Source: a virus. Taken from it: DNA of 64,000 bases. The stretch spans positions 62,001-126,000 of the IMG/VR virus record IMGVR_UViG_3300046543_000266; one strand, 5' to 3'. Numbering within the stretch: position 1 is the first letter of the stretch; every line of letters begins with the position of its first letter. A program made the position numbers and the translations under genes. Below are positions 519 to 29,331 of this stretch, piece by piece. Under the pieces are notes generated by a model. It saw only the letters and a program-made list of their open reading frames with translations. It was not told where the DNA came from and did no database searches.

Positions 519-1787
519 ATGACAATCGCACTCAATGCGGCCGCACGTTTAACCGCGGCGATGGCCGACGAGAAGCAATCGTTGGTGTTCCTGCAGTCGC
601 TCGGGTTCAATGGCCTTCGCTACAAGAACGCGGAAGAGGATCGCATCCGCTTCCACTACACGACGTATAACGAGCAGTTCCTCATCAAGCACTTTGGCAA
701 GCCCGAAAGCATCAAGATCGGCAAAGTGTGGAAGTTCGGTACGGAAGGCGCTATCCTCGTGCGCACCACTATGAGTCTGGTGGTGCTCCGCAATGCCAAA
801 GGCAACGCCAAGCGTCGGGCACCTGCTCCAGTCGCACCCGTTGCACCTATCGAGACGCATGTTCCGGCACCGGCACCGGCTCCCGCGCCAGAGCCGAAGC
901 TTCCTCCGGCACAGGATCCGAATGTTCCAGGGGCTAAGGACAACGACGACGCGAATGTCCCGGTCACGCATTTGCCTGACAATCTGGTCAAGTTCTACAG
1001 CCGAGCCAAGGCACTGAAGGACGACCGGATATACCGTAAGCGCTTCATGGCTCTGCTGTGGCATTACCTGAACACCAACAAGTTCGGCGGTCAGTTGAAG
1101 GAACCACGCTTCAACTTGCTCAAGGATCAAGATGCGTATCGGATGCGACTGCGTGGTCGTTGGTGGCCGGGTAAGCGCGTGCTGGATATCGCGCCTCGTC
1201 TGTACAACGCACAGCAGAACTTCTTCGTCGAGATCTTCCTCCACGAGATGTGCCATCAGGCAGTGTCCGAAATCGACCACGCGGACTTCGACCCATCCGA
1301 GCGTTACCATAAGGGACACGGTCCGTACTGGCAAGACTGGATGCGCAAGGTCGGCTTGAACCCATTGCGGTTCGATCCGAATGACAACTCGACCTACATG
1401 ACCGAGGACGAGAAAGAAGAACATAAAGAACGCGTTGAACAGCGTAAAGAAGCATCGGAAGAACTGCGTGATCGGGGCATCACCCGTCTGATGTATTACG
1501 AGGGTATCACACCGGCAACCGCAGTGTGGCAGGGGAAGATCTTGGTTGGTCTGGCAGTATGCCCGACCGCCAAGAACGGTAAGGCTATCGCATTCCTCGA
1601 CATCAACGAGTTGCCCGGCAATTCGTTCAAGCTCGTAGCAGGAACCGCACTGTACAAGTTTTCGGGTACAGAAGAGCAGAAGGCCACGTTGTTGAGTGCC
1701 CCGTATCTGAGTAAGGCGAAGCGCATTGCTGATTACTACGGCGATAAGGCTCTTCTTCGTCAGCTCAAGCGGACGCGTCGTATCTAA
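519..1787 (+). CDS. SprT-like zinc metallopeptidase with N-terminal NAAARL tag
   Basis: 422 aa. The protease domain carries HEMCH (about H242, E243, H246) and a downstream GHGPYW that supplies the third zinc ligand (about H267), as in SprT/Spartan peptidases, which degrade DNA-crosslinked proteins. The N-terminus reads MTIALNAAARLTAA, a peptide shared by nine other proteins here. A Pro/Ala-rich linker (about residues 98-135) separates an N-terminal domain (about 20-97) from the peptidase. A C-terminal region (about 300-422) is unrecognised. Tag plus linker suggest a protein packaged in the head and delivered with the DNA; that role is inference, the peptidase family is not. Confidence 0.8.
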   Translation: MTIALNAAARLTAAMADEKQSLVFLQSLGFNGLRYKNAEEDRIRFHYTTYNEQFLIKHFGKPESIKIGKVWKFGTEGAILVRTTMSLVVLRNAKGNAKRRAPAPVAPVAPIETHVPAPAPAPAPEPKLPPAQDPNVPGAKDNDDANVPVTHLPDNLVKFYSRAKALKDDRIYRKRFMALLWHYLNTNKFGGQLKEPRFNLLKDQDAYRMRLRGRWWPGKRVLDIAPRLYNAQQNFFVEIFLHEMCHQAVSEIDHADFDPSERYHKGHGPYWQDWMRKVGLNPLRFDPNDNSTYMTEDEKEEHKERVEQRKEASEELRDRGITRLMYYEGITPATAVWQGKILVGLAVCPTAKNGKAIAFLDINELPGNSFKLVAGTALYKFSGTEEQKATLLSAPYLSKAKRIADYYGDKALLRQLKRTRRI

Positions 1788-1849
1788 TCAAAACACAATC
1801 ACCCACCTTCCCACACTCGTACCCCCCATAATCCATTGGAGTGCAGTGT

Positions 1850-3496
1850 ATGATATCTATCAGTAGCCCGGTTGCAGGCAGTGTCGTAAGCGGTACGGTG
1901 AACATCACCGGATCGTCCAGTCAATCAGTAAGCGCTCAGGTCGGAGCATCGGCACCCGGTACGCCGGTGGTCCTGCCTAGCGCAAGCTTCTCTGTGTCAG
2001 TCGATGTGTCCGCGAATGTTGGCCCTGTCGATCTGACGGTCACCAACAGTGCAGGCGAGTCGGCCGTCGTATCCGTAATCGCCAACATGTCCGCAGACGG
2101 CACAACGACGCCTCCGGCCGCCAAGATTGTCGACGCGTCGGGCAACCTCTGGACGGTCGATCAAGGTCACGCAGCCAAGAATGGTGCTTGGGTGTCCACG
2201 GGTTCGCCTACCGCATTCACCGAGTTGGTGTATTGGGGTGGTGTGATCTACGGTCACAACGCGACCGGTTGGGTGAAGAACACGGCTGCTCCGTGGGTTG
2301 CCACCACGGATCCGCGTCCGGCAGCACCGACCATCACGATGAGCCGACCGCTGAACAACGCGGTCTCCGGTTCGCTGTGTACGGTTTCGGGTACGACCAA
2401 CCAGACGTCGGTCACGATCAAGGACGGTTCCACAGTGTTGGCAACGGTGGTCCCGGCAGCAGACGGTACGTTCAGCAAGCAAGTACGCCTCAGCGGTGCT
2501 GGCGCACGGAACGTCAACGTAGCGGCGTCGTCAGCCACGGCATCCGCGACTGTCAACGTTGGAAGCGCATTGCCCGCGAAGATCTTCTACGGCATGAACG
2601 GTCACATGTGTTACGCCGATGGTAGCTGGTCCACCTACTCGAAGGCGTCGCAGCTCGCTTTCCTGAAGGACCTCGGCTGCACCATGTATCGTGCTGACGT
2701 AGCATCTGGCTTCATGGCCGACGTCATCAAGACGCAGTTGTCGGCTGGTGGTTCCTTCTACAACCAAGGTATCGGATTCATCCCGGTACTGAACGCTGTG
2801 TCCGCAGGTTGGACGACCGGTATGACGGAAACGGCTGCCTACAACCTTGGGAAGAGTCTGGGTGTGGCGGTAGCTACTTCGCTCAATGGTCTGGTCGATT
2901 ACATCGAGTGCGGTAACGAGCTCGACGTGCCGATCAAGATTGGTGGTAACGGAAGTCAGCCGTCGGACTGGAGCCAGACGACGTGGCCCTCGTATCGCGG
3001 CGTACTGCGTGGGATGTACGACGGCGTGAAGAGCATCAACACCGACATTCAGGTGGGCGTCAACATCGGTATCCCGATGGCGTATGGTGCGCTCATCATG
3101 CTGTGGAATGGTACGGAACCCAACGGCACGACGGGTAAACCGAAGCTGCGTTGGGACTTCACTGCCTATCACTGGTACGAGTCGAGTGGTGACATCGAGC
3201 ACGCTGGTGGACCGGCCAACGTCAACATTCCGCAACTGCTGAAAGATCAGTTCGGCGTTCCCACTATCTTCACTGAGTGGGGCTGGCAGTCCAACACAGG
3301 TAACGCACCGGCATACGTCACCAATGCGATGACGCAGTATCGCAACAGCGCCAACTTCAAGGACAAGTACGGCATCCTGTGTATCATGCAATACTGCATG
3401 ATCGACCCGACTTACGGGTTGGTTCAGGCAGACGGAGTCACCAAGAATCCGGCTTACACCACGGCGAAGAACTTCATCGCGGCTAATCCGGCGTAA
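1850..3496 (+). CDS. Virion glycoside hydrolase-like protein (clan GH-A-type barrel) with Ig-like domains
   Basis: 548 aa from the ATG at 1850, chosen because GGAG lies 8 nt upstream; an in-frame GTG at 1841 overlaps that site. Order: an Ig-like beta domain (about 1-80), a linker, a second Ig-like domain (about 160-230), then a TIM-barrel-like domain from about 245. The barrel has an N-E acid/base candidate in GNELD (about E356) and a nucleophile candidate in FTEWGW (about E476), a spacing typical of clan GH-A. A role in digesting capsule or other surface glycans is likely; substrate unknown. No N-terminal tag or signal peptide is seen. Confidence 0.65.
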   Translation: MISISSPVAGSVVSGTVNITGSSSQSVSAQVGASAPGTPVVLPSASFSVSVDVSANVGPVDLTVTNSAGESAVVSVIANMSADGTTTPPAAKIVDASGNLWTVDQGHAAKNGAWVSTGSPTAFTELVYWGGVIYGHNATGWVKNTAAPWVATTDPRPAAPTITMSRPLNNAVSGSLCTVSGTTNQTSVTIKDGSTVLATVVPAADGTFSKQVRLSGAGARNVNVAASSATASATVNVGSALPAKIFYGMNGHMCYADGSWSTYSKASQLAFLKDLGCTMYRADVASGFMADVIKTQLSAGGSFYNQGIGFIPVLNAVSAGWTTGMTETAAYNLGKSLGVAVATSLNGLVDYIECGNELDVPIKIGGNGSQPSDWSQTTWPSYRGVLRGMYDGVKSINTDIQVGVNIGIPMAYGALIMLWNGTEPNGTTGKPKLRWDFTAYHWYESSGDIEHAGGPANVNIPQLLKDQFGVPTIFTEWGWQSNTGNAPAYVTNAMTQYRNSANFKDKYGILCIMQYCMIDPTYGLVQADGVTKNPAYTTAKNFIAANPA

Positions 3497-3502
3497 TTTT
3501 AC
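3494..3502 (+). promoter_or_regulatory. Late-type motif TAATTTTAC
   Basis: Match to the recurrent YAATTTKAC intergenic motif. It overlaps the stop codon of the glycosidase-like gene, lies just before a hairpin, and is about 110 nt upstream of the dCMP deaminase. Confidence 0.35.
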
Positions 3503-3509
3503 GGTCATC

Positions 3510-3537
3510 GGTGGTGAGGCTAACACGGCTCACCACC
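3510..3537 (+). terminator. Hairpin after glycosidase-like gene
   Basis: GGTGGTGAG pairs perfectly with CTCACCACC, followed by TTCGCC. The T-run is short, so termination may be weak. Confidence 0.5.
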
Positions 3538-5795: not shown

Positions 5796-7145
5796 ATGGC
5801 CACGAACGCCGCTCAACGCCTCACCGCAACTGCTGCCCAACGCAAGAACCCCTCCAATACCAAGACAAAGGCTCGCGCTAACATGAACACGGAAGCAACC
5901 CGCGTGTGCGCCGTTGAACTGCCGAAGTTCCGGTACATCGACGACGTCACCCGTTTCCTCGACACGATGCGTGACGAGATCGACGAGTTGGGTCAGCTCG
6001 TGAAGGTTCAGCAACAGGCTCTGGCCTATCTGCAACGTCCGCGCGCTTTCGTGAAGGCTGCGATGGAAGTATCGGCTGCTGGCTTTTCCTTCAACATCAA
6101 CACTCCGGCCGGTGGTTCCAAGACTCACCTGAAGCGCAAGATCGACCCGGAACTTCCGAAGTTTGTGATTCCGAACATCACGAAGCTGCGCGAGCAGTAC
6201 GCGCTGTCCGAAGATCTGTATGAGAAGCATCGCATGTTGCAAGCTGTCGAGACGCAGGTTGCCATGCAGTTTCCGGAACGCAGCGGCAAGGAATACAACA
6301 ACGCAATCGGCGCGATCAAGGAACTGAAGGACAAGGTCGGTGCGCAGCTGAAGGAAGTTCTGGGCTTCCTGAACTCGGTGGCGTCGGAACACGTACCGAA
6401 GACCTTCATGAAGTACCGTGAAGCGATCATGCAGGAAATCTCCGAGCACGTGATGTTCGAGCAGTCGGAGCAGTTCATGTACGTGAATACCAGCCCGGCG
6501 AAGGAACTGGTGTTCACCAACTACATCATGCTGCAGAATGCGACCAACGACGAAGGCAAGACCACGCCGCATCTGTACATCAGCATCCAGTGGACGGTCG
6601 GCGCTGGCGTCAAGGTGCAAGTCAACCACGAGTTCGAGTTGCCCGCGCAGCTGATGAAGGAAGGCGGCACCGAAGTGGAAAGCGCTGGCGAAGCAGTGAA
6701 GGCTATCAGCCATCTGCTGGACCTCGAAGACTTCAGCACGTCGCTGGGTGTTATCCCGCTGGCAACCCAACTGCGCATGGAACCGTCGCAAATCACGCCG
6801 ACGATGTTCACGTACAAGGACTTCATCAGCCGCATCGACTTCGACACGAACAGCCTGACGTTCATCCTGCGCAAGGGCACCACCCAAGAGCAAGTCGACG
6901 AGATCAAGTATCCGCTGTACGAAGAAGTCAAGGCGCTGTTCCAGAAGGATCTGAACAAGAGCCGCAAGGCCAAGCTCAAGGCGAAGATCAGCCGCCAGAA
7001 GATCAGCTTCGAGCTCATCAACGTGGCCGAGCGTGGCGAAGTCAACAACCACGATGCTGAGTTCCTCGCCGACCGCTTCGGTCTGAACGACAGCCAACTG
7101 CGCAAGGTTGTGAACTTGCTCAACGAAGGCAACAGGGACCAGTGA
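5796..7145 (+). CDS. Tagged virion protein, unknown function
   Basis: 449 aa, no family recognised. The N-terminus MATNAAQRLTATAAQR is a variant of the NAAxRL tag and is followed by a Lys/Asn/Thr-rich flexible segment to about residue 40. Helical, charged regions occur at about 55-75 and 150-200, and a long charged helix (about 365-400) near the C-terminus. The segment SAAGFSFNINTPAG near residue 95 shares FSFNI with the upstream gene product. AGGA lies 8 nt before the ATG. The stop overlaps the next gene's start (TGATG), so the two are translationally coupled. Confidence 0.65.
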   Translation: MATNAAQRLTATAAQRKNPSNTKTKARANMNTEATRVCAVELPKFRYIDDVTRFLDTMRDEIDELGQLVKVQQQALAYLQRPRAFVKAAMEVSAAGFSFNINTPAGGSKTHLKRKIDPELPKFVIPNITKLREQYALSEDLYEKHRMLQAVETQVAMQFPERSGKEYNNAIGAIKELKDKVGAQLKEVLGFLNSVASEHVPKTFMKYREAIMQEISEHVMFEQSEQFMYVNTSPAKELVFTNYIMLQNATNDEGKTTPHLYISIQWTVGAGVKVQVNHEFELPAQLMKEGGTEVESAGEAVKAISHLLDLEDFSTSLGVIPLATQLRMEPSQITPTMFTYKDFISRIDFDTNSLTFILRKGTTQEQVDEIKYPLYEEVKALFQKDLNKSRKAKLKAKISRQKISFELINVAERGEVNNHDAEFLADRFGLNDSQLRKVVNLLNEGNRDQ

Positions 7146-7321
7146 TGAAACCGTTGCCGCGTGTGAGTCCCGCAGTTGAAGAGGTTCCCACTGGCGACGT
7201 AGGCACTCGGATTGGTATCGATCCGGTGCCTCCCACCATTCCGGTACAAGGGCAACGACAAGTCAAGTCACGCAGCGCCGTCAAGTTGAACGCTGCCCGG
7301 CGACTGGCAAAGGATAAATGA
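7145..7321 (+). CDS. Small protein with C-terminal NAARRL tag
   Basis: 58 aa. The start ATG overlaps the previous stop and the stop TGA overlaps the next start, so it lies in a tight operon. The product is Pro/Val-rich and probably unstructured; its last 15 residues, SAVKLNAARRLAKDK, are the tag seen at the N-terminus of eight other proteins. This is one of two cases with the tag at the C-terminus. No other function can be inferred. Confidence 0.65.
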   Translation: MKPLPRVSPAVEEVPTGDVGTRIGIDPVPPTIPVQGQRQVKSRSAVKLNAARRLAKDK

Positions 7322-8850
7322 TGGCCGCCCCATTCGTCTATTTCAAGGACACTGTGCAGGACACGGTGGTTCTGGCCGACATCACGTCGCTGCTGAACGC
7401 TGGCGAGACTATCTCGACTATCGTTGCCGGAACTCTGAGTCCTCAGTCCACACCCGCTCTGACGGCTATGATCACCAGTGGGATAAGCCCGCAGGTCTTG
7501 ATCGCGCTGTCCGGCGGCGTCAACAACACGAGCTACGGCTTCAAGCTGACGGTCACCACCAACGCCCGAGTGTTCCTCGTGTCGTGTGTGGTCACTGCTG
7601 CCGACAAGGAGTTCGTGCCGTACACCACGCAGAACCCAGACGCGTATCAGGATCTGGTGGACGAGGTAGAAGCAGGTAAGGCCGCAATCGGTACTGCAAT
7701 CTTCAGCTTCCCGCCGACCATCGATCCGCGGGGCGGGTTCGTTACGTGGGAGCTTCTGGCTTCCGACGGAACAGTGTACGCCGCAGGTAACGCCTACGAG
7801 TACAACGTCCAGTCTAACGGTCTGAGCAACACCGTGATCGGCAAAGCTGTTATCAGCATTCCGTCGACCGTTCCGCCGTCGCTGGATGGTCAGCGGTATC
7901 AGCTGCGATACACGTTGGAACTGCCGCAGTCGATTGGTGTGTCACCTGACCCGACAACCGGGTTGCAAGGACAGAACACCTTCTTCCAGTTCGAAGGCAT
8001 CCGCGTCGTTGGCCTGAACACGGTTCCGCTGGGAACGCAGCCTTCCGTCGAGCTCAAGGGTGTACCGGCTACGGTATCGATCGTTGTGGATCGTCCGTAC
8101 GACAACGTGACGGTCGAACTGTGGAGCGGTGGCACGCAGCTCAGTCCGCCGTCGCAGATCACCGACTTCGAGCGTACTGCGGACGGCTGGTATTACGCAG
8201 GTGTTATCGACACATCGCAGATGGAAGTCTCACTGGTCCCATACCAGATGGTGTGGAAGTATTGGGCGAGCACCAACGCAGCGATGGTGTATCAGGAGTC
8301 GGCTGATTTCTGGGTTATCAACCCGTCGATCATGAGCGCTATCTCGGATGTGAAAGCCAAAGTATCGAAGGCTCGCACCACGCTGTACGGTGCTCCAGAC
8401 CTGATCTACTCGACGCCGACGATCCTCACATGGCTGCGTCGGGGTGCCGACCAGTTCAATGGTGCCTACGGTCAGTTCACGAGCTTCACATTCACGAATG
8501 CACTCGGCGTCATCCGTGAATACTGGTTGATGTGCGCTGAGTTGTCGGCGCTGGAATCGCAGTATCTGGCGGAAGGCGAGAAAGCATTCAACTTCCAAGG
8601 CGCTGCTATCACGCTGGATGTGGACCGCACTCAGTACCTCGACAACGCGGCTTCGAAGATCCAATCCAAGTTGGACAACGAGCTCAAGTCGATCAAGGTC
8701 AATCTGATCATCAAGGGCAACACTGGCGGTGACGGTTCTGCGGATCCGAGTCGTCTGCGCGCTGGCGCTATCGGTGCAGTTGGTATCACCATCACACCCG
8801 CCTCGATGTGGGGTCGTTATGGTCCGGGTTACTTGCGAGGTCTTAGCTAA
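7321..8850 (+). CDS. Virion structural protein, unknown
   Basis: 509 aa from the second ATG of an ATGATG pair, preferred because AGGA is 6 nt upstream (3 nt for the ATG at 7318). The protein is Thr/Ser/Val/Gly-rich and mainly beta in the first two thirds, with repeated Ig-like stretches (for example near residues 145-190 and 235-290), then a helical C-terminal third. No enzyme motif or membrane segment is seen. Length and context fit a neck, tail or head-surface component. No family recognised. Confidence 0.6.
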   Translation: MAAPFVYFKDTVQDTVVLADITSLLNAGETISTIVAGTLSPQSTPALTAMITSGISPQVLIALSGGVNNTSYGFKLTVTTNARVFLVSCVVTAADKEFVPYTTQNPDAYQDLVDEVEAGKAAIGTAIFSFPPTIDPRGGFVTWELLASDGTVYAAGNAYEYNVQSNGLSNTVIGKAVISIPSTVPPSLDGQRYQLRYTLELPQSIGVSPDPTTGLQGQNTFFQFEGIRVVGLNTVPLGTQPSVELKGVPATVSIVVDRPYDNVTVELWSGGTQLSPPSQITDFERTADGWYYAGVIDTSQMEVSLVPYQMVWKYWASTNAAMVYQESADFWVINPSIMSAISDVKAKVSKARTTLYGAPDLIYSTPTILTWLRRGADQFNGAYGQFTSFTFTNALGVIREYWLMCAELSALESQYLAEGEKAFNFQGAAITLDVDRTQYLDNAASKIQSKLDNELKSIKVNLIIKGNTGGDGSADPSRLRAGAIGAVGITITPASMWGRYGPGYLRGLS

Positions 8851-10210: not shown

Positions 10211-10573
10211 ATGACCGTAAAACTCCACGCGGGAATGCGCCTCCTGGCTGACAGCAATGAAGCCGGAGTGGCACTCACTGCCATCAAGAAGATCATCGGC
10301 CCCCACTTCGTCACCGACGAGGACCACGCAGAACAACGCATCCTGTGGCGTAGCAGCAAGATCCAAGCCGAGCTCGACTTGACGCTCGACGACGAAGACA
10401 TGCTGCTGTTCAGCTTCCGCACCCGAGGCTTTGCCGGCGGATTTGACGCTGAGGGCCACACGGCGCACGAGCTGTTCGCCGACATCCGCAAGCAAGTGAC
10501 CGAGTATCAGCCGTCGGGTCGCGTACCCAACGACATCGCGGCTCTGCGCAAGCGGTTTGCCAACATCCGATAA
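10211..10573 (+). CDS. Tagged small protein
   Basis: 120 aa. The N-terminus MTVKLHAGMRLLADS is a variant of the NAAxRL tag. The remainder is a mixed alpha/beta sequence, acidic in the middle (LTLDDEDMLLFSF), with no recognised family. No strong ribosome site is visible. It lies 16 nt after the HNH gene and 9 nt before another tagged protein. Confidence 0.6.
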   Translation: MTVKLHAGMRLLADSNEAGVALTAIKKIIGPHFVTDEDHAEQRILWRSSKIQAELDLTLDDEDMLLFSFRTRGFAGGFDAEGHTAHELFADIRKQVTEYQPSGRVPNDIAALRKRFANIR

Positions 10574-10582: not shown

Positions 10583-11020
10583 ATGGATAAGCAGCAACTC
10601 CAAGAACTGATCGCGGCGTTTCTGAAAGTGAATCCGACGCCGACGGACGATCAGGTACATGCGCTGGCTGGCGCAGTCAACCTCGACCACGAGACGTTCG
10701 AAGCCGTTATGTACGAGATGCTGGCCGAGTCGGACGAAGTCAACGCCACATCCGAGCATACCGACGCTGAGAAGGTTCTCGACGGCGAGTACGACCCGAA
10801 CACCACGACGACCGACGATCTGGTGCTGAACGACGGAGCACCGGAAGGTACCTCCAGCCAACAGCAAGTGCAAGACTCGACGTTGGACGACGGTGTAGCA
10901 CCGGACGACGTTGGCCTCGACGTGAACTCGGACCAGTCGGCACTTCTGGACGATGGCGAAGTGATTCGCAGTCTGGCTGCAGTCAAGGTGAACGCGGCTG
11001 CTCGTCTGAAGGCAAACTGA
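10583..11020 (+). CDS. Acidic protein with C-terminal NAAARL tag
   Basis: 145 aa, strongly acidic. The first 60 residues look helical; residues 60-125 are Asp/Glu/Thr/Ser-rich and probably unstructured. The last residues, AAVKVNAAARLKAN, are the tag at the C-terminal end. AAAGGA lies 7 nt before the ATG. Acidic, flexible and tagged are features of internal head or scaffold-associated proteins; function is otherwise unknown. Confidence 0.65.
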   Translation: MDKQQLQELIAAFLKVNPTPTDDQVHALAGAVNLDHETFEAVMYEMLAESDEVNATSEHTDAEKVLDGEYDPNTTTTDDLVLNDGAPEGTSSQQQVQDSTLDDGVAPDDVGLDVNSDQSALLDDGEVIRSLAAVKVNAAARLKAN

Positions 11021-12263: not shown

Positions 12264-12320
12264 ATGAAACGTGGAACAGTTACCAAACATCAACATAACA
12301 AGGTCATCTATTATGGCTGA
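12264..12320 (+). CDS. Possible leader peptide of helicase gene
   Basis: 18 codons (MKRGTVTKHQHNKVIYYG) with GAGGA 6 nt upstream, overlapping the helicase start ATG by 8 nt. The ribosome site here is better than the one before the helicase ATG, so the helicase may be translated by coupling. Equally, the same site could serve an in-frame GTG at 12271 of the helicase. A small basic peptide; function unknown. Confidence 0.35.
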   Translation: MKRGTVTKHQHNKVIYYG

Positions 12321-15300
12321 ACTCCGCCCAACAACCAATCTCGTGATTCCGGAAGATCTGATGCTTCCGAAGCGCGAGTGGAAGAACAAGTTTCTGTTCG
12401 TCTACAACAAGGGATACGTTGGCTCGCCGTCGGCATTCATGACGAAGCTCTGGGCTTCCGTACTTTTCCCGTCGCTTGCGCACGACCCGAAGTTCGGTAG
12501 CGTCAAGGGTAAGGCGGCGGCGAAGGCGCTGGCAGAAGTTACTCCGTACGGATATCTGCGTCTGAAGAAAGTGCTCGACCCCAAGAACCCGCACTTCGTC
12601 GTTAGCGTCCCGCTGTATAGTGGCCCGAAGTCGAACGGTCTGGGCGCGATGTCATTCCTGTCGAACTGGTTCCTTGGTGGGAACAAGATGAAGAACCCGC
12701 CGGAGCCGACTGCTGAAACGATCAGCGAACTCCGCGAGTTCCAGTCCAAGCTGACCGCAGAAGGTAGTCCCGACGAGATCCGCGACCAAGTGATCTCGGT
12801 TGATCGTGCAGTGCAAGCAATGCGTCTGCCGGCCGATCAAGCCCTCCAGCTGAAGTCCACGCTGCTCGGCATCCGGGTGCAGACCAAGGGTTATCTGGGC
12901 ATCATCTTCGCGGATTTCAAGATCACGAAGGAAGAAGCACAGCAGCTGACAACCACGCCGTGGACGGAACTGCGCGACATCGATCTGTATCCGCTGCTGC
13001 TCCAATGGGTCAAGACGACCTACGGCGAACGTGGCCCGGCTCCGATGACGAGCTTCCCGATCTCGAAGATCGCCATGACGCTGCCGCCTACGCATTCCGC
13101 GGACGCGCGCATCAACGAGAACAACATCTCGATCGGTCCGAAGGGCACGCCGTTCTACCTGCCGAAGGAACTGCCGAAGACTACCACGATCGACTACGAA
13201 GATCGCTACACGCAAGCGGGCGCGCGTGAAGACGGCAGCTTCTGTCTGTTCGATATCAACCAAGGCGCTCAGGCCATGTCTTCGGGCGCGAACCTGAAGA
13301 ACAACCTGCCGGTCAACATGCCGGTTCTGGTTGACTGGGTGAACCTGAAGTATGCGTACACCATGACGAATGGTGCGATGGAAGTGCTGGACCTCACGCG
13401 TTTCCGCGCTGCTGACGTCACCCACATCCGCAATCTGGTGGACGACACGGTCGTTACTCTGGAACTCATCGATCTGATGACTCGCATGGGTGAAGCCGCT
13501 GGTTGCCCCGCGTCGTCGCTGGCCCCGATCCCCACCGATCTGGAAGGTCTGCAGTTGGGTCCGGTTCTTGAACGTCAGTTCGAAGATGCCAAGCGTCCGC
13601 AAGACTGGTTCAAGGTCGCGGTTCTGGCCTACAAGAAGCTCGAAGAGCAAGACCGCATCACCATCGCCGACATCAACACCATCGGCTTTGGCCCGTTCCG
13701 TACGCTGGCTCGCTACTTCAAGCAAGTCGAGGCAACGGTTCGTGACAACATCGATCCGGTGTACAACAAGTATTCCGTGGCTACCGTCATCGAGGCAATG
13801 CCGTGGCTCGTGTTGATCGCCAAGTACACCGACGACATGCCGGGTCTGCGCGCATCGGACGTGGCGAACCGCAAGGCAGCCATCGATCAGGAAGTGGATC
13901 CGAACTGGAAGCCGCCTGCAATCCCGCTGTTGTCCGATCAGATTGGCTTCTTGCCGCACCAGTCGAAGGTGCGCAATCTGCTGAAAGATAGCCCGGACTT
14001 CGCAATGCTGCCGGTTCAAGCTGGTGGCGGCAAATCGATCCTGTTGTTGACCGACATCCTGTACGAGATCAAGGCCAATCGCAGCAACCCGTATCTGGTC
14101 CTGTGTCCGGGCCACTTGGTCGCCAACTACGTGAAGGAAGTGGTGTACTTCACGCAGGGTAAGCTCAACGTCGTAGCCATCTCGCGATTTGCTATCCGCC
14201 AGAATGGTTGGGCGCGTCTGCGGGCTATCCTGGAAGCGGCTCCGCGCAACACGGTGGTTGTCGCTGAGTACGATTGTTTGGCTTACCGTCAGCAGTCTGT
14301 GTGCTACGGCACGACGCCGGTGGAAGTGTTCCCGGTCATCGACTTCCTGCGCCAGTTCAAGTTCGGCTACGTCGCACTGGACGAATCGCATTTGGTCAAG
14401 AACGCTACCTCGCGTTCGAAGTCGACGGCAACGTTGATCACCGACATCCCGAAGAAGCGTCTGGCTTCGGGTACGATGGTTCACGACAGCCCTTCCGACT
14501 TGGCAATGCAGGTCTCCATGATGGACCCGACGCTGTTCGGCGATCGTGACAAGTTCAACGAGACGTACGGCGAAGTGGTTCGGGGTGGTCGCGTGGTCAA
14601 GTGGCGTGACGACGCACCGCAGAAGATTCAGCAGCGCATCCAAGGCCGTATCGTGTATGCGAAGGCTATGCGTAAGGAGTGGGCTGCCCTCTTGCCTACC
14701 AAGCGCGAATGGCTCGGTGGTGTTGAGCTGACCGAAGCTCAGCAGAATCTGTACAACGACATCTTGGACGACACGGTTGAGAAGATCACCGAGAAGGCCA
14801 AGAAGGGCAACAAGAACCTGCAGAAGTTCCTGGGTCTTGGTAAGAAGCCCGCAGTCAAGTCGGATGACGACGAAGACAACGGCGACGAGATCGTTGACGA
14901 GGACAACGAGGAAGAAGATGCAGCGGACGAAAGCGCAGGTGAAAGCGTCGAGAACGCACTGCGTCCGTACTTGCAGCGCCTCGAAACCTTCCTGATCGCT
15001 CCAGGTCGTGACGACGTGGGCAAGAACCTGCTGAAGGGCGACGATCTTATCAGCCCGAAGGCACTGGCAGTGTTGCGTCGTGCAGAAGCCCACATCTTCG
15101 GTGGTCAAGAAGAAAACGGCGATACCGGTCAGCTGGAAGCCTACGGTCCGTTCCCCGGCAAGGTGCTGATTTTCACGAACAACATCAAGTCGGCTGAAGA
15201 ACTGTGGGAACGTGCCAGCCCGCGTATGCGTGCCTGTGGTCTGCTGTATAAGGCCGCCCGCAAGATGGAAGACGGTTCCAAGTTCGAAAAGGATCCGAAG

Positions 15301-18159: not shown

Positions 18160-19017
18160 ATGCCACTACACGTTCCGAAGGCGTTTCAAAACGCGGGCGT
18201 CTCCACGTCCAAATCACAAGAGCGCGATCGCGTCTCGTACAACAAGAACCGTCTGCGGGCCAACGAACAAGGTATCGCGGATGCACTGAACACCAACGCA
18301 GTCGACACTCCGGTAACACAGGCACTCGAGACGTTCGAAGCCGAGAAGGAAATGGGTCGGATGAATGGCCTCGACTACGAGACGTGGTTGCCGTTCGCTG
18401 CCAAGCTGTACAAGATCAGCCCGCGCATCGAGGACTACATCATTGTCAACACGATGATCTGCCCGTCGGACATTCCGAATCGTAACGGCATCGCGTTCCC
18501 GGCCACGGAGCTCGCGAAGTTCCAGCCGCCGCCCACCAATCGCATGGCGTACAAAGCGTGGGCTGGCTGTCCTGTCCATCTCGAGCACGACAACGAAGTT
18601 CACGAGAAAGCCTATGGCGTGATTCTCGACGCCGCATTGACGAAAGTCTCGGGCTACGGTGGTGGCAAGCTGTGGAAGGTCATGGGGTTGCAGGCAATCG
18701 ACAAGAACAAGTATCCCGACATGGCGCAGAAGGTGTTGACGAAGGAAATCAACACCTACTCGATGGGAGCTCTGGTCGATTACTTCACGTGCGGCTACTG
18801 CGGACAGGAATGCAGCAGCAAGCGGGTGTGCGGTCACATCTCCAGTCCGGCTAACGTCAACTGGAAACAGTACCGTGACTTCGACGGTTCGTCGCATTTG
18901 GCGTTCCTGAACGCTCATGGCATTCAGCCGATCGAATGTTCCATCGTTGCTGACCCGGCGTGGGCTCCTGCTCTGTCCGACGAAGTCTTCGATCCGTGGG
19001 CCAACACCGGAGGCTAG
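18160..19017 (+). CDS. Prohead maturation protease
   Basis: 285 aa. The sequence fits the herpesvirus/T4-gp21-like prohead protease group: a His in CPVHLEHD (about H140) and a Ser in TYSMGA (about S200) are 60 residues apart, close to the His-Ser spacing in T4 gp21, and a Cys cluster CGYCGQEC...CGHI follows the serine as in several large-phage proteases. A further acidic candidate lies in IVADPAW near the C-terminus. It would process scaffold and head proteins before DNA packaging. AAGGAG precedes the ATG. The position before scaffold and capsid genes supports the call. Confidence 0.72.
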   Translation: MPLHVPKAFQNAGVSTSKSQERDRVSYNKNRLRANEQGIADALNTNAVDTPVTQALETFEAEKEMGRMNGLDYETWLPFAAKLYKISPRIEDYIIVNTMICPSDIPNRNGIAFPATELAKFQPPPTNRMAYKAWAGCPVHLEHDNEVHEKAYGVILDAALTKVSGYGGGKLWKVMGLQAIDKNKYPDMAQKVLTKEINTYSMGALVDYFTCGYCGQECSSKRVCGHISSPANVNWKQYRDFDGSSHLAFLNAHGIQPIECSIVADPAWAPALSDEVFDPWANTGG

Positions 19018-19018: not shown

Positions 19019-19669
19019 ATGGTCAAGCTCAATGCTGCGGCGCGACTCATTAACGCCGCAGGTCCGCATCCGGCTGCTACGCAATTCGCCGAGAAGCACG
19101 GCATTCCCATCTACAACGTGGACAACGCGATTGCTGCCAGCCGATTCGGGCTGGTAGTTGCCGAGATCGATAAGGCAGTACAATCGCTGTACGCTCGCGG
19201 GGTTCCCCGCAAGTCCATAAACGTCCACGAGATCAAGTTGATAAAGGGTAAGTCGTTCCCTGCCAACGGTTGGGATGCAGGTGGATTGTTTGAGGATCAC
19301 GACGGTTACGGAATCGTGTCTCTGGCTGCTGGCCAGAAGTTCGGTGACAGTCCGGTGCTCAAACCCGGTGGATGGGCAATAGCGGGCGCGTACATGAACG
19401 ATTCGGTACGCCACGAATTCGGTCATGGTCTGGTCCGATCGTTGATGACGTTCGGTGAAAACCCGACGATGCTTCGGAACGCGTATGTCCGCGAGAAGAG
19501 AGAACCGGGCGGTATCCAACCCAGACTGTCCAAGTACGCTGCTGAGAATGAGTACGAGTACTTCGCGGAAGCGTTTGCTGCGTTCATGCATCCGAAGTTC
19601 AAGACCAGCGGCATCAAGATCTACCCGCCGTTACTAGAAGTGTTCGAGAAACACTTCGGCGTCAAGTAA
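19019..19669 (+). CDS. Zinc metallopeptidase (HEFGH) with NAAARL tag
   Basis: 216 aa. Zinc-binding HEFGH lies at about residues 132-136 and a downstream EYFAEAFAAF (about 181-190) supplies a likely glutamate third ligand, the gluzincin-like pattern of lethal-factor-type and related toxin peptidases. The N-terminus MVKLNAAARLINAAG is the best match to the shared tag. No signal peptide. GGAGG is 5 nt before the ATG. A protease stored in the head and injected to cleave a host protein is an attractive reading; target unknown. Confidence 0.75.
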   Translation: MVKLNAAARLINAAGPHPAATQFAEKHGIPIYNVDNAIAASRFGLVVAEIDKAVQSLYARGVPRKSINVHEIKLIKGKSFPANGWDAGGLFEDHDGYGIVSLAAGQKFGDSPVLKPGGWAIAGAYMNDSVRHEFGHGLVRSLMTFGENPTMLRNAYVREKREPGGIQPRLSKYAAENEYEYFAEAFAAFMHPKFKTSGIKIYPPLLEVFEKHFGVK

Positions 19670-19911: not shown

Positions 19912-21450
19912 ATGGCGATCGTCACCAAGAAGCGGAAAGTCGCAGCAGCGCGCGAAAGCACGTCGTTGCACTTTTCGAACGAAACCACCAAGGCGGTGGA
20001 AGAGAGCAAGCAGCCGCTGCTCAACCATCAAACGGCTGACACTCTGATCGATCCGGAAGACACGACGGACGATCAAGGTTCGACGCACTTCACGAACGAC
20101 ACGAAGTACAGCAAGAAGACGAATCGTCTGCACACCACTGCCGCGAAGAAGCCGGTTCTGGCGCTGGAAGTTCCCGAAGCGTTCGGCAAGAAGGTGCCGA
20201 AGGACGAGGCTCCGGCCGACGAAGCAACGGAAGCATCGCTCGACGACGTGGCTGCTGAAGACGACGGTTGCGAAACCGGTCTGCAAGACACGCAGCACAT
20301 GCCGAACGACATCGATCCGACGGAAGGCTACCTGACGACGGGTTCGGAAGAAGGCGACGACGAGTTCGACGAAGACCTCGAAGACGACGAAGACGAAATC
20401 GACGCCAGCGCCGAATTCGAAGAAGGCACCGGCACGAATCCCCAGTCACTGCTCGAAGCAGACGACGAAGAATGGGATCCGGACTCGGCAGTCGTTGCTG
20501 AATTCGGCGACGAAGACGGCGAAGACGAGTTCTCGGAAGAAGATGAATCGGAAGGCGAAGCTGAAGTCGAAGCCGCTCCGGCATCGGACGACGACATGTC
20601 GGTGGTCGACGTGGACGGTACGGACGACGAAGGCGACGACGTTGTGTTCGCATCGATCGGCCTGCAACTGCACGCCATCAAAGCCAACCGCATCATCGCA
20701 TCGATCGGCAAGAAGCGCGCGATCAAGGCCGGTCACGGCGACGTGTATCTGTCGGATCAGTTCCAAGACGTAGTGGGCGTCGAGATGTCGAAGCACGGTC
20801 TGCGCGCTGGTCTGCAGAAGATGGGCTTCGCACTCGCAACGTTCAACGTGGCGAAGAACGAAGTCGTGAACAAGCGCGTCGAAGCGAAGGCTGCCAAGGT
20901 CACGTCGGCTGTCCGTCGCACCACGCATCAGTCGAACGAAGCACTCGGCCAGTGCTTGGCGATCGCCGCTGTCGGTATCAACCGTCAGTACTTCAAGGAC
21001 GCACGCAACGAACTGCGCGCATCGCTCGAAGAAGAACTCGAAGCGGCTGGCGTTCGTGGCGCGTCGCGTCTCGTGCGCAAGGTGTTCGCATCGAAGGGCG
21101 TCGACTACGCGAAGGCGATTCTCACGCTGGCAAACAAGCTGGTGAACATGCCGGAAACGACGCGTAACCAGTTCGCGGCCGCTCTCGACATGACCAACGA
21201 CGGCGAGATCGAAGACGACGAAGACCTGTTCGCTGAACCGTCGGATCCGGAATTCGTTACGGCCGAAGGCGAAGACGAAGAATTCGACGACGAGTTCGAA
21301 GACGAAAACGACGCACCGAGTTCGGTCCAAGCTGCGCTGGCTCGCCCGGCAAGCAAGGTCCAACGCCGTGAGATCAACGCTGCGAAGACCGGTTACTCGG
21401 TCACCGCAATGGCGATCCTGTCGGGCAAAGCACCGCTGCCGTTCGCCTAA
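19912..21450 (+). CDS. Acidic scaffold/prohead core-like protein
   Basis: 512 aa. Residues about 100-245 are extremely Asp/Glu-rich; a basic/helical domain (about 245-425) follows, then a second acidic stretch (about 430-470) and a basic C-terminus containing REINAAKTGYSVTAMAIL, a partial echo of the tag. Position between protease and capsid gene matches the scaffold in T4-like head clusters, and the charge pattern is typical of prohead core proteins. GAGGAA precedes the ATG. An internal segment near residue 245 (SIGLQLHAIKANRII) may also be a processing or docking site. Confidence 0.6.
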   Translation: MAIVTKKRKVAAARESTSLHFSNETTKAVEESKQPLLNHQTADTLIDPEDTTDDQGSTHFTNDTKYSKKTNRLHTTAAKKPVLALEVPEAFGKKVPKDEAPADEATEASLDDVAAEDDGCETGLQDTQHMPNDIDPTEGYLTTGSEEGDDEFDEDLEDDEDEIDASAEFEEGTGTNPQSLLEADDEEWDPDSAVVAEFGDEDGEDEFSEEDESEGEAEVEAAPASDDDMSVVDVDGTDDEGDDVVFASIGLQLHAIKANRIIASIGKKRAIKAGHGDVYLSDQFQDVVGVEMSKHGLRAGLQKMGFALATFNVAKNEVVNKRVEAKAAKVTSAVRRTTHQSNEALGQCLAIAAVGINRQYFKDARNELRASLEEELEAAGVRGASRLVRKVFASKGVDYAKAILTLANKLVNMPETTRNQFAAALDMTNDGEIEDDEDLFAEPSDPEFVTAEGEDEEFDDEFEDENDAPSSVQAALARPASKVQRREINAAKTGYSVTAMAILSGKAPLPFA

Positions 21451-21566: not shown

Positions 21567-22268
21567 ATGTCTCTGTATCTTCCTTTCACGAAAGCAGTCG
21601 ACAGCACGGAAATGCTGACGGCTCCGGGTGCAGTCTTCACCGCTGAAGGTCAAGCACTCGTTCGCGCAGCCAGCGCTCCTGCTGCTGGCGTTCTTCCGGG
21701 CACTGGCGTTGCTGCCAACGACATCTTCGCGGGCTTCGCTCTCGCAGGTACGTCGGCACTGCCGTTCCCGGAATCGTACACCAACAAGGTGGAACAGTTC
21801 CTGGTTCCGGTGACGGGCGTGGTTACGCTGTCGCTCACGCCGGTGGCTGGTCAAGTGTTCCTGCATGACGACACGGCGGGCACCGCCAACACGGCACCGA
21901 CGGTGTCGGGCAAGCAAGTGACCGGTCTCACGGCTGGCAACCAAGTCACCATCACGTACAAGTACGCAGTCAGCGTCGTGCAAGCTCGCGCGCTGTTCGG
22001 CGACGTGCAACCGGGCGGTTACGTCGGCGCATACGTCGGCCAAATCGGCGTGGTCACGCGTGGCTCGATCTGGACGTCGGAATTCGACTCGTCGGCAAAC
22101 TGGGCGATCGCTGGTTCGGACGCATCGCATCAGATCGTCGTCGGCGCAAACGGCCAGCTCAAGCTCGGCACGGTCGGCACGAACGGCGTTGCAGTTCCGG
22201 GCGCATACGTGATCGGCGTTCCGGGTCAAGACGTGCCGTTCCTCGGCATCCGCTTCTCGGCTGCGTAA
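21567..22268 (+). CDS. Probable capsid decoration/head protein
   Basis: 233 aa, Ala/Gly/Val/Thr-rich and predicted largely beta, no enzyme motifs. It has an Ig-like middle part (about residues 80-130), then a segment resembling head-fibre or decoration proteins (GSIWTSEFDSSANWAI). TTGGAGAAG precedes the ATG. It lies between scaffold and major capsid genes, is flanked by hairpins and uses the strongly biased codons of the capsid gene, which suggests high expression. The exact role is inferred from context. Confidence 0.55.
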   Translation: MSLYLPFTKAVDSTEMLTAPGAVFTAEGQALVRAASAPAAGVLPGTGVAANDIFAGFALAGTSALPFPESYTNKVEQFLVPVTGVVTLSLTPVAGQVFLHDDTAGTANTAPTVSGKQVTGLTAGNQVTITYKYAVSVVQARALFGDVQPGGYVGAYVGQIGVVTRGSIWTSEFDSSANWAIAGSDASHQIVVGANGQLKLGTVGTNGVAVPGAYVIGVPGQDVPFLGIRFSAA

Positions 22269-22361: not shown

Positions 22362-23453
22362 ATGCGTACAAAAGTTAAGGTTCGTGCGTCCAAGACGCCG
22401 ATGGTGGCAGCCAGCGAGTATCGCTTCGACGGCGCGCTGACGGGTGAACGTGCAATCGGTCGCAACGGCGAAATCAACGCCAGCAACAAGCGTGACCTCA
22501 TCAACCGCCAAATGGCTTTCGTGCAAGCTGCTTCGAACGGCCAAGTCGCCGGCGATGCAGTGTTCGCTTCGGCAGAACAAGCAACGAAGGCTTCGAAGGA
22601 ACTCATCGCTGCTGCGTTCAACGACGGCGAAGCTCACCGCGTTCTGGGCGAGCGCATGGCTGATTCGCTGTACATCACGGCGAATCGCCAAGGCTTCATG
22701 CGCAAGTACCTGACCAAGATCACGGTCGAGCAGGGCGCAATCCCCCGCTTCCCGCTGCGCACGAAGAACGTGACGGCTGTGTACTCGACGTCGCCGACGA
22801 AGATCCAGTCGCAAATCACGCGCGACAAGTGGTTCACGCCGCCGGAACTGCAAGTGGTCACCCGTCCGTTCATTCCGATGAACGAACTGAACCAGTCGGC
22901 TGGCGACGTGCTGCAAGAAAAGTACGTGGAAGCAACGGAAGCCATCATGGTCGGTGAAGACCGCCTGTGGTACAACCAAGTGAACCAGATCGTCGGCGTG
23001 GACAACCCCCTGTCGATCATCTCTGGTCAGCTGACGCCGTACACGTTCGCGCAAGTCATGACCAACGTCACGCGTTGGGGCCTGAAGGCACCGCACGTCC
23101 TGATCGCCACGGACATCTATCAGGACATCATCGGTAACGCGGACTTCTTCAACGCGATCGATCCGGTTGCTCGCCACGAACTGCTGTTGACCGGCGAACT
23201 CGGCGTGATGTACGGTTGCACGATCACGTCGGACGCGTACCGTCACCCGGAGCACAAGGTGCTGAACCAAGGCGAATTCTTCGTGATCGCCGACGCTCTG
23301 AACCACGGCGCGTACTCGGATCGCGGCGGTCTGCAATCGCAGCCGACCGACATCTCGGTCGAGAAGATCCCGGGTCGCGGTTGGGTGATGTTCGAATCGC
23401 TCGCCGTGTCGGTTGCCAACAGCCGCTCGGTAGCAAAGGGCCTCCGTATCTAA
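22362..23453 (+). CDS. Major capsid protein
   Basis: 363 aa. The order protease, scaffold, decoration, this gene, then connector and tail genes is that of T4-like head clusters. The body reads like an HK97-fold capsid protein: an N-terminal arm rich in Ala/Asn/Lys, a central domain, and a C-terminal region with HVLIATDIYQDIIG and GCTITSDAY, both common in large-phage capsid proteins. The N-terminus KVKVRASKTPMVAASEY could be removed by the protease (an MVAA site resembles the RLxA end of the tags). ACGGAGTATCAAG precedes the ATG. Codon bias suggests high expression. Confidence 0.8.
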   Translation: MRTKVKVRASKTPMVAASEYRFDGALTGERAIGRNGEINASNKRDLINRQMAFVQAASNGQVAGDAVFASAEQATKASKELIAAAFNDGEAHRVLGERMADSLYITANRQGFMRKYLTKITVEQGAIPRFPLRTKNVTAVYSTSPTKIQSQITRDKWFTPPELQVVTRPFIPMNELNQSAGDVLQEKYVEATEAIMVGEDRLWYNQVNQIVGVDNPLSIISGQLTPYTFAQVMTNVTRWGLKAPHVLIATDIYQDIIGNADFFNAIDPVARHELLLTGELGVMYGCTITSDAYRHPEHKVLNQGEFFVIADALNHGAYSDRGGLQSQPTDISVEKIPGRGWVMFESLAVSVANSRSVAKGLRI

Positions 23454-27022: not shown

Positions 27023-27036
27023 AGCTGTAACCAACG

Positions 27037-27066
27037 AGGCGACAGTGCTAGTACAGGCTGTCGCCT
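27037..27066 (+). other. Hairpin after sheath gene
   Basis: AGGCGACAG pairs with CTGTCGCCT across a 12-nt loop, no T-run. Fits the series of processing-type hairpins that follow the abundant structural genes. Confidence 0.6.
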
Positions 27067-27088
27067 TGTAGACTAAGAGGTGACTCAG

Positions 27089-27469
27089 ATGGGATTCAAA
27101 CTCAACGCAGCAACGCGCCTTAGTGCTGATACCGAAACCAGCAAGGACGGTAAAGCAGTCAGCCCGGCGAATGGTTTCCGCGAGCAGAACGAGGACAACC
27201 TGAAGGACCGACAGCAAGACAGCCAGAAGTCGGTCGATGAAAAGCCCAAAGCCGAAACCACGGCGGATGCTGAGGGTGACGACGGCGCGAGCACTGGTGA
27301 TACAACTATCACCCTGGACATTCCGCAGGACAACGACGACGATATGAGCTCGATCGACGCTGTGGTAACGGCCGCAGTTAAACGACTGCACGCTGAGCAA
27401 GAAGTCGAAGCGGACGCCGACCCGAAGCTCTTCAACATGGCAAACCAACCGATGGGGCCAATGGCATGA
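27089..27469 (+). CDS. Tagged acidic protein
   Basis: 126 aa from the ATG at 27089 (AGAGGTGA 6 nt upstream). The N-terminus MGFKLNAATRLSADTE is a strong tag match. The rest is hydrophilic, Asp/Glu/Lys/Ser-rich and probably unstructured, with a short helix near residues 85-105. Located between sheath and tube; its stop overlaps the next gene's start. No family recognised; an internal or scaffold-bound protein fits. Confidence 0.65.
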   Translation: MGFKLNAATRLSADTETSKDGKAVSPANGFREQNEDNLKDRQQDSQKSVDEKPKAETTADAEGDDGASTGDTTITLDIPQDNDDDMSSIDAVVTAAVKRLHAEQEVEADADPKLFNMANQPMGPMA

Positions 27470-27774
27470 TCATCAATGCGGCTACCCGCCTCAAGGCGTC
27501 GGAATACGAGGTCAAGCTGCACAAAGCTTCTGATCTATTCACCCGATTGAACGCGGTCTTCCGCAACAAGCTGTCGCTGAACAAAGTCGACGCTTCGATC
27601 TGCGTGAAGGACGTCAGCGTGGTGCTGGTCCTCAAAGCGTTGCAGCGCATGGGTTACGACCTACGTGCTCGCGGCGACAGTGAAGCGGCACACATCTTGT
27701 CGCTCAACGGCACGCCTGAACTGCAAGTACAATCGCCCCGCGAGGATTGGGACCCGGTTATCAGTTTCGTCTGA
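27466..27774 (+). CDS. Tagged small protein
   Basis: 102 aa. It starts with MIINAATRLKASEYE, another tag match, and overlaps the preceding tagged gene by 4 nt. The body looks alpha/beta (LNKVDASICVKDVSVVLVLKALQRMGYD) with no recognised family. Two tagged genes in a translationally coupled pair suggest joint packaging or assembly. Confidence 0.65.
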   Translation: MIINAATRLKASEYEVKLHKASDLFTRLNAVFRNKLSLNKVDASICVKDVSVVLVLKALQRMGYDLRARGDSEAAHILSLNGTPELQVQSPREDWDPVISFV

Positions 27775-27792
27775 GACCCGTTGCAGCAATCC

Positions 27793-27801
27793 CAATTTGA
27801 C
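27793..27801 (+). promoter_or_regulatory. Late-type motif CAATTTGAC
   Basis: Perfect YAATTTKAC copy, 38 nt upstream of the tail tube gene, in a 65-nt intergenic gap. Confidence 0.55.
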
Positions 27802-27839
27802 GGTGTCTTCGACAAACAGACATACTAAGGAGTATCACA

Positions 27840-28346
27840 ATGGCTCGTTCCAGCTTGTATGATGCACAAGCAGTGGCGGACCCGGCTCAGAGTTGGAACT
27901 TCGACTTGTTCCTTCCGGCAATCCCGGGTTCGTCGGATACCCGTGCTCTCACGTGGAAGTGCATGTCCACGGGTCTGCCCGGTTTCCAAATCGAAAAGGT
28001 CGCAGTTCCGCTGCACGGCGTGGAGTTGCAGTACGCTGGCCGCAAGACCTTCAGCCACAGCTTCCAGTCGGTGTTCATGGAAGCCTCGGACTGGTCGACC
28101 CGTTCACAGTTCTACGCTTGGTCCGAAGCTACTCGCTCCTGGGTCAACAACAGCGGCACGTTCGCCAGCGCCTACAAGGTGAATGCGCAGATCGTGGTCT
28201 ACAACGACCTGCCGCAAGTCGCACGCACGATCAACGTGTGGGGTCTGTGGCCCGAACAGATCGCTGACGTAGCGCTGGACGGTGCGAACTCGACGCTGGT
28301 CACGCTCGACATCACGTGGTCGTTCGACTACGTAACGGATGCTTGA
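27840..28346 (+). CDS. Tail tube protein (T4 gp19-like)
   Basis: 168 aa, the usual length for contractile-tail tube proteins. The fold markers are present: an N-terminal strand region with SWNFDLFLPAIPG, the loop LTWKCMSTGLPGFQIEKVAVPLHG and the C-terminal strands ending LVTLDITWSFDYV. AAGGAGTATCAC precedes the ATG and a late-type motif lies upstream. It follows the sheath with two tagged genes between. Stacked hexamers form the DNA conduit. Confidence 0.88.
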   Translation: MARSSLYDAQAVADPAQSWNFDLFLPAIPGSSDTRALTWKCMSTGLPGFQIEKVAVPLHGVELQYAGRKTFSHSFQSVFMEASDWSTRSQFYAWSEATRSWVNNSGTFASAYKVNAQIVVYNDLPQVARTINVWGLWPEQIADVALDGANSTLVTLDITWSFDYVTDA

Positions 28347-28348
28347 TC

Positions 28349-28558
28349 ATGATCGTCACCTCGGCGGCATCCCGTCTGGTGGCGGCAACCCACTCGTTTG
28401 CGTTTGAAGTGCGTATCCTTGACGACAACGGCCAGCACGGCGTTTTCCGAAAGACTGTAGACGCAGCAACGCGCGGAGCCGCCTGGATAAAGCTGACCAA
28501 GGATCTCAAGAGTATGAAGGTCCTGGAGTCGGTCTACCAAATCACGAGCACACCATGA
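28349..28558 (+). CDS. Tagged very small protein
   Basis: 69 aa. It starts 2 nt after the tube stop with MIVTSAASRLVAATHS, a divergent tag in which Ser replaces Asn. The rest is a small alpha/beta sequence (FEVRILDDNGQHGVFRKTV). Its stop overlaps the next tagged gene's start. No other features. Confidence 0.6.
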   Translation: MIVTSAASRLVAATHSFAFEVRILDDNGQHGVFRKTVDAATRGAAWIKLTKDLKSMKVLESVYQITSTP

Positions 28559-29331
28559 AAACCCGACTGCACGCTGCACGTCGGTTGGTAGTTGCAGAAG
28601 GGGAGTGGTTCCACGCGATGGAACCCGAGATGCAGAAGCAGTATCTGGAAGAGCATCCGGGTAGTAAGTACGCGAAGGATCACACGTCAACGGCACCGGC
28701 CAATCCGAAGGCGCTACCTGCGCCCACTCAGAAACCGAAGTCTGAAGTAAAACCTGCTAGTCCGAAGCCGACGCCCGAAGAAGTCAAGAAGGTGTCACCG
28801 AAGGCGAAGGCCGCAGGTAGCAAGGAACGTGTTGACAGCGCTAAGAAGCTGAAGGCAACAGCTCCTGGTCTGGCGTCCCAGTTGATCGGCGGCGTCAAGG
28901 ATTTCGGCCACGATCTGAGTGCAGTTGGCAACTTCCTGAATGGTCACCCCGAGCATGGTGACATGAAGCGTGTTGGTTCGATGCTGGTCACACTTCTAGG
29001 CACGGGCGCAATGATGACGGCTCTGGGTGCAACTGGCCCCGTCGGCTTTCTGGCGTTCATGGCACTGAAGAAGTTGGCGCTTCCCGAGTTGGTTGGATGC
29101 GCGAAGAGCGTGTACAAGGGAACCAAGCGTCAGTTCGCACCTGCGGATCGGTCCAAGATGTTGCCGGAGTATCAGGATGCGTGTGTTCGTTTGCTGGCTG
29201 CTTCTAAGCAAGATCAAGAAACGTTGCTGGAACTGATTGAGCTTCTCGCTGACATGGTTGCTCACGGGGAAATCCCGCAATCGGCTCTCGACGAAGCGCA
29301 AGCAGAACTGGAAGCCACGCACAAGAAGTAA
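28555..29331 (+). CDS. Tagged protein with Pro/Lys linker and hydrophobic segment
   Basis: 258 aa. N-terminal tag MKTRLHAARRLVVAEG is followed by WFHAMEPEMQKQYLEEHPGSKYA, a Gln-Tyr-Leu...His-Pro-x-Ser element that I associate from memory with internal virion proteins of large phages. A Lys/Pro/Ala linker (about 45-100) follows, then a hydrophobic stretch (about 140-180, LVTLLGTGAMMTALGATG) and a helical C-terminus. Tag, linker and a possible membrane-interacting segment suggest an ejected protein that might help DNA cross the inner membrane. This is inference. Confidence 0.62.
   Translation: MKTRLHAARRLVVAEGEWFHAMEPEMQKQYLEEHPGSKYAKDHTSTAPANPKALPAPTQKPKSEVKPASPKPTPEEVKKVSPKAKAAGSKERVDSAKKLKATAPGLASQLIGGVKDFGHDLSAVGNFLNGHPEHGDMKRVGSMLVTLLGTGAMMTALGATGPVGFLAFMALKKLALPELVGCAKSVYKGTKRQFAPADRSKMLPEYQDACVRLLAASKQDQETLLELIELLADMVAHGEIPQSALDEAQAELEATHKK

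Follow-up and report, generated by a model that had tools for sequence, protein, structure and literature searches.

A short peptide recurring at the ends of unrelated head-block proteins in a clade of jumbo phages: a probable capsid-targeting signal

Results

The head block and its tagged genes

We have analysed a stretch of 64,000 nucleotides (the window) that spans positions 62001-126000 in the record of an uncultivated virus of 217,605 bases (IMG/VR IMGVR_UViG_3300046543_000266; here G000), a jumbo phage. The first 30 kb of the window form a head and tail block whose gene order matches that of Burkholderia phage BcepSauron, and a number of the proteins encoded there carry at one end a related peptide of 11-12 residues, which we refer to as the tag. 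The phage is related to Sarumanvirus and Moturavirus by its close capsid protein and by its head-gene order of protease, scaffold, structural protein and capsid: the major capsid protein is 82.7% identical to those of the Burkholderia phages BcepSauron and BcepSaruman and 62.4% identical to that of Achromobacter phage Motura, with 34-42% identity to those of Erwinia, Dickeya, Vibrio and Pseudomonas jumbo phages. The features are collected in Table 1, and genes are designated below by their first nucleotide in the window; sheath and tube genes were named through gene-order matching with BcepSauron and orthologue alignment.

Table 1. Tagged genes and other head-block features of the phage
Product	Position (strand)	Tag or related peptide	Family match and remarks
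NUDIX hydrolase	1-511 (+); true start G000:61954, 47 bases upstream of window	N-terminus MTVKLTALTRLLL; tag VKLTALTRLLL, just outside window	phrog_1198, 4e-21
SprT-like metallopeptidase	519-1787 (+)	N-terminal IALNAAARLTA, 525-557	Pfam PF10263, 1.8e-9
Conserved 449-aa head-block protein	5796-7145 (+)	N-terminal MATNAAQRLTA, 5796-5828	Tag, then disordered linker, then body
Small protein	7145-7321 (+)	C-terminal VKLNAARRLAK, 7280-7312	
Head-tail connector protein	7318-8850 (+)	Untagged	phrog_17327, 1.5e-88
120-aa protein	10211-10573 (+)	N-terminal VKLHAGMRLLA, 10217-10249	
Acidic protein	10583-11020 (+)	C-terminal VKVNAAARLKA, 10982-11014	
Head maturation (prohead) protease	18160-19017 (+)	Untagged	phrog_18299, 6.3e-87
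HExxH metallopeptidase-like protein (RHEFGHG)	19019-19669 (+)	N-terminal VKLNAAARLIN, 19022-19054	PF07737, weak, below cutoff
Scaffold-like core protein	19912-21450 (+)	N-terminal KVAAAR, resembling the tag's first half	Between protease and capsid genes; relatives with full internal tags
Virion structural protein	21567-22268 (+)	Untagged	phrog_16710, 5.8e-54
Major capsid protein	22362-23453 (+)	N-terminal half-motif VKVRASK, 22374-22394	
Acidic protein	27089-27469 (+)	N-terminal FKLNAATRLSA, 27095-27127	Between sheath and tube genes
102-aa protein	27466-27774 (+)	N-terminal MIINAATRLKA, 27466-27498	
69-aa protein	28349-28558 (+)	N-terminal IVTSAASRLVA, 28352-28384	
258-aa protein	28555-29331 (+)	N-terminal TRLHAARRLVV, 28561-28593	Largest tagged family, 18 members
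DUF3175-like protein	Beyond window	N-terminal MMKLHASKRLMA at 127729; C-terminal LNASNRLLA* at 128155	

An earlier note on this DNA had listed ten such peptides, and all ten are present where it placed them, eight at N-termini and two at C-termini. Its NAAxRL form holds for most of them, with looser versions in two, HAGMRL (10211) and SAASRL (28349). As a complete set the list did not stand: there are three further tags, one at the true start of the NUDIX gene, previously read as 71-511, and two on the DUF3175-like gene at 127.7 kb. The tagged bodies are mutually unrelated, as had been claimed, each falling in a blastp cluster of its own with no similarity outside the tag, and the prohead protease that the note had thought likely is borne out by its family match. 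Every copy within the window lies at a gene boundary. Genome-wide, with the sequence read as overlapping pieces, 13 tags were observed against 0.19 expected by chance (terminal [NHST]A[AGSL]xRL, ~263 genes). The 11 tagged genes first counted are all on the plus strand, and 10 of them fall within a 30-gene head block (p = 8e-10; p-values here are approximate, since the ~263 genes come from a simple codon-usage caller). At a threshold score of >=15 the minus strand and the fibre region of this genome are tag-free, again in line with the earlier description.

In an AlphaFold2 model of the 5796 protein (mean pLDDT 66), the tag is modelled as a helix of low confidence, and a disordered linker separates it from the folded body; the model had no PDB match with E <0.001. 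The corresponding model of the 28555 protein reached a pLDDT of 63. Two of the tagged families show additional conserved elements. The C-terminus of the 27089 protein, DADPKLFNxxxQPLG, is conserved, and some relatives carry a second internal tag; in the 28555 family a second motif, EW(W/F)..L....(K/Q).Y..EHP.SKYA, directly follows the tag, at times on otherwise different bodies.

Occurrence of the tag in related phages

A motif scan of the whole genome and of related phages, which the earlier note had proposed, yielded the 3 additional tags described above and many in relatives. A profile trained solely on the 12 confident tags of this genome gave 20, 18, 6 and 3 strong matches (score >=18) in four relatives, against a mean of 0-0.1 for 30 column-permuted control profiles and none when the profile was reversed. 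Chance origin of the tags is excluded by these held-out matches and by the excess of terminal tags over expectation (13 vs 0.19). We also scanned 2.9 million viral contigs with a degenerate nucleotide pattern encoding MK(L/I/V)NAAxRL at an N-terminus and obtained 22 stretches, 18 of which contain homologues of proteins of this phage. A search for recurrent N-termini that made no use of the motif returned the tag as the top cluster in G000, in two relatives (G002, 23 starts; G005, 18 starts) and in Motura, where the drifted form MxIQAxARLxA / xIQAAxRLxA coincides with annotated gene starts in the head block. Some 13 Motura products are tagged (gp158-164, gp168, gp170, gp171, gp175-177, gp197). 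No recurrent terminal tag was present in the four more distant phages examined (Erwinia Y3, Vibrio GR7B, Pseudomonas Aura and Xanthomonas PhiXhv-12), and the tag is therefore confined to the nearer clade; none was found in 50 kb of PaBG, and no description of the motif in the literature searched. A 2.9-kb stretch (L128) holds an array of six consecutive small tagged open reading frames of the MKLQAATRLQV type that have no homologue in this phage.

In all, 155 distinct tags were collected, on ~78 body clusters (blastp); the threshold used places 143 of them at N-termini, 6 at C-termini and 6 within proteins. Within the N-terminal set, R8 is present in 143/143, L9 in 141/143 and A5 in 140/143, and the remaining columns are hydrophobic at position 1, mostly K at 2, L/I/V at 3, N/Q/E/H at 4 and mostly A at 6. 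A predominates at position 11 (106/143), where E occurs in 8/143, and information falls to background beyond residue 12-13, with no fixed P1' residue. A degenerate motif of 11-12 residues, roughly (M/V/I)-K-(L/I)-(N/Q/H)-A-A-x-R-L-x-A, thus occurs on unrelated late head-block proteins of one jumbo-phage clade.

Selection on the peptide and genome-specific forms

Codon identity at the conserved tag residues is 0.22 in this genome, against 0.25 expected from codon usage, and 0.22-0.28 in four genomes, against 0.22-0.25 expected. Since codons are random within the tags, selection acts on the peptide and not on the DNA; the tags do not constitute a DNA or RNA element, nor did they arise by recent copying from one to the next.

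The consensus differs from genome to genome, as in VKLNAATRLAA against MEIQARARLAA: tag identity is 0.62 within genomes vs 0.51 between them (permutation p <= 0.0005, in a procedure that assumes independent tags, which is not fully true for shared orthologues). This likeness within a genome, despite unrelated codons, means that unrelated proteins of one phage drifted together, as would be expected if a single co-evolving receptor reads all of the tags.

The tag is found at N-termini, at C-termini, at both ends and in linkers, and orthologues with unaltered bodies have gained or lost it. Orthologues of 10583 carry it at the C-terminus in five phages (this one and four others) and stop at the body in a further three (L036, L038, L125), the last of which has a tag-like QVNANARLGA in a linker instead; in L126, BcepSauron and Motura (gp157) the 5796 orthologue begins at the body, untagged. 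NUDIX orthologues are tagged in three relatives, N-terminally or at both ends. In the DUF3175-like family, this phage and BcepSauron have a tag on both ends of the protein, and in G001 and G005 an internal tag separates two tandem domains, which suggests gene fusion or fission at the tag. The two-domain genes are on L099 (G001) and L089 (G005), and the one-domain version in this phage and BcepSauron ends in a tag. All that the 7145 protein (tagged at its C-terminus) has in common with N-terminally tagged proteins of G001 and G005 is a short VQG-containing stretch; relocation of the tag between ends is no more than suggested by this case.

A related half-motif in capsid and scaffold proteins

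Capsid proteins of the clade start with (V/I)(K/Q)(V/I)xA(A/S/T)(K/R)TP, and scaffolds with KVxAA-like stretches; some scaffolds have full internal tags. For 20/33 capsid proteins (4.5% expected) and 7/21 scaffolds (3.1% expected), the window that best matches the tag's first seven columns falls inside residues 1-16; these counts are indicative only, being drawn from related sequences. Ten other proteins given the same test were mostly near expectation, and the half-motif was absent from the capsid proteins of the four more distant, untagged phages.

Nature of the tagged proteins

Most tagged proteins are small. Recognised bodies include the SprT-like peptidase (519), the second HExxH peptidase (19019, a weak match), NUDIX proteins (G000, G001, G002, G005), the DUF3175 family, a kinase-like protein in G002 (phrog_15752, E=3e-6) and a saccharopine-dehydrogenase-like enzyme in G001 and G002. 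Tagged copies of the latter lie at L102:14163-15608 and near 35792 of G002, and it is possibly a phage-carried polyamine enzyme. The tagged Motura gp162 (L164:13056-13580) has an LYHGTT stretch that recalls ADP-ribosyltransferases; the family search did not confirm this, with PF12120 alone matching (E=0.18), and it gave no match for one G002 protein read in the same way, so that both stay as leads noted by eye.

Discussion

The earlier note had likened the peptide to the T4 capsid-targeting sequence (CTS) and proposed a packaging tag that works at either terminus and is possibly cut after RLxA. That it is a tag is strongly supported by its rediscovery with a held-out profile and without any motif, its modular gain and loss, the conserved C-terminal copies, the genome-specific consensus and the head-gene neighbourhood; packaging itself is the best fit, and one that we infer. 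We consider it probable that the tag is a short linear capsid-targeting signal, CTS-like in function, unlike that of T4 in sequence and not bound to one terminus. During prohead assembly the tag would be bound by one receptor that the phage itself encodes, with the scaffold/core or the capsid-core lattice as the likeliest candidates, and tagged proteins would so be trapped within the prohead; the capsid and scaffold half-motif would reflect that both meet the same partner, and the prohead protease may afterwards strip the tags. The tagged payloads (SprT and other peptidases, NUDIX, kinase, dehydrogenase and small proteins) would then be ejected along with the DNA and affect the host at an early stage, like T4 internal proteins. 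A broader and more tentative proposal, somewhat less likely than not in our view, is that of a terminus-free targeting code, in which one prohead receptor reads the motif at N-termini, C-termini and linkers as well as the half form of capsid and scaffold, and receptor and tags co-drift to give a dialect in each lineage. If so, the clade would have a general, multivalent system of cargo loading, in view of the proteins with two tags and the tags that lie between duplicated domains.

Several observations weigh against a capsid-targeting role. Members of the block are conserved yet untagged in relatives (Motura gp157 and gp180), and the tag is therefore not essential on those proteins; the connector, sheath, tube and protease, all structural proteins, are untagged; the majority of tagged bodies have no recognised function; the capsid and scaffold motif is partial only and was counted among kin sequences; and no virion proteomics of a tagged phage was found in the literature searched. 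Also, the hydrophobic moment of the tags is no greater than that of shuffled tags (mean z -0.27), so that the tag is not a simple amphipathic docking helix. The last result bears as well on the possibility that the tag is a membrane- or DNA-binding helix or directs proteins to some other compartment. Its positive charge (K2, R8), its helix propensity and the weak helix in the 5796 model would suit such a role, which we regard as very improbable given that moment and a fixed A5/R8/L9 more specific than general charge would need.

It is unlikely that the motif serves mainly as a recognition or cut site of the prohead protease, a maturation propeptide with targeting as a secondary role. The protease is encoded in the block, RL-x-A, and RL-x-E in 8/143, resemble T4-type L-x-E sites, and PaBG, a related phage, is reported to process its capsid protein, which sheds ~20% of its mass (PMC7412058); against this, the residue after position 11-12 is not fixed, connector, sheath and tube lack the tag, and C-terminal copies cut after RLxA would retain it, so that cleavage cannot be the motif's sole job. 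The same untagged sheath, tube and connector, which need folding help, make it improbable that the tag directs its bearers to a chaperone or another factor of assembly and not specifically to the head interior, as does the frequency of tags on small payload-like proteins and at C-termini. Work listed in the references of PMC10052503 concerns a T4 head protein whose N-terminus directs it to GroEL, and the late, structural character of the block and the half-motif on capsid and scaffold N-termini would agree with a chaperone role. Finally, the position of all window copies at gene boundaries could recall a gene-junction DNA or RNA element, or recently copied DNA, translated incidentally; the random synonymous codons in four genomes contradict this, internal and linker copies occur, Rfam gave no match, and we give the idea practically no credence.

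With regard to known systems, encapsulins and bacterial microcompartments load cargo into protein shells by means of short N- or C-terminal peptides; these shells are not viral heads, and the peptide sequences are not known to be related to the tag. In T4, the first ten residues of IPIII are enough for packaging, with processing residues 8 and 10 (PMC9026906), and the internal proteins have diverse, freely varying bodies and are ejected against host defences (PMC3012670, PMC9391042). The tag resembles the CTS of IPI/IPII/IPIII and Alt as a short terminal peptide on diverse, fast-changing, unrelated bodies in a genome that encodes a prohead protease and scaffold with the capsid gene, and T4 payloads act on host or defence. 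Unlike the CTS, however, it has an invariant R8-L9 and no T4-related sequence with E at the cut position (residue 10 in IPIII), it occurs at C-termini, both ends and linkers as well as N-termini, and it is borne by ~10-25 proteins per genome. We have not classed the tag as a T4 CTS because sequence and terminus restriction differ. DarB of P1 has an N-terminal signal that loads this defence-related protein into a myovirus head, and its authors found no consensus among Dar proteins (PMC9024508), in contrast to the clear consensus over ~78 families described here. Giant-phage head proteins of SPN3US and phiKZ also carry N-terminal propeptides, on ejection proteins, and the first 15 residues of SPN3US gp53 and gp54 are identical (PMC5694885). 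Those propeptides are mostly long, have A-x-E cut sites and include no short tag common to dozens of proteins, whereas an A-x-E (or S-x-E) cleavage motif is absent from the tag consensus.

The ejected small proteins of jumbo phages are mostly uncharted, and the tag gives a way to list proteins that such phages may bring into bacteria. Should it serve to load the head, the cargo could be listed from a motif search alone (~12 genes here, at least 20 in relatives and ~78 families overall), and these families would be good candidates for roles in counter-defence or in taking over the host early on. Such a signal would likewise provide a small, transferable peptide by which proteins of choice could be brought into phage heads, attached at either of their ends, and a natural example of one receptor changing in step with dozens of ligands.

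Other features of the window

The window gave no tRNA or Rfam match, and a PADLOC defence search returned weak matches only. A very large helicase-like protein is encoded within the head block (12313-17001; phrog_62, E=2.5e-112). It may be a virion protein too, since a RuvB-helicase-like protein of 221 kDa in PaBG is reported to occur in virions (PMC7412058 Table 1).

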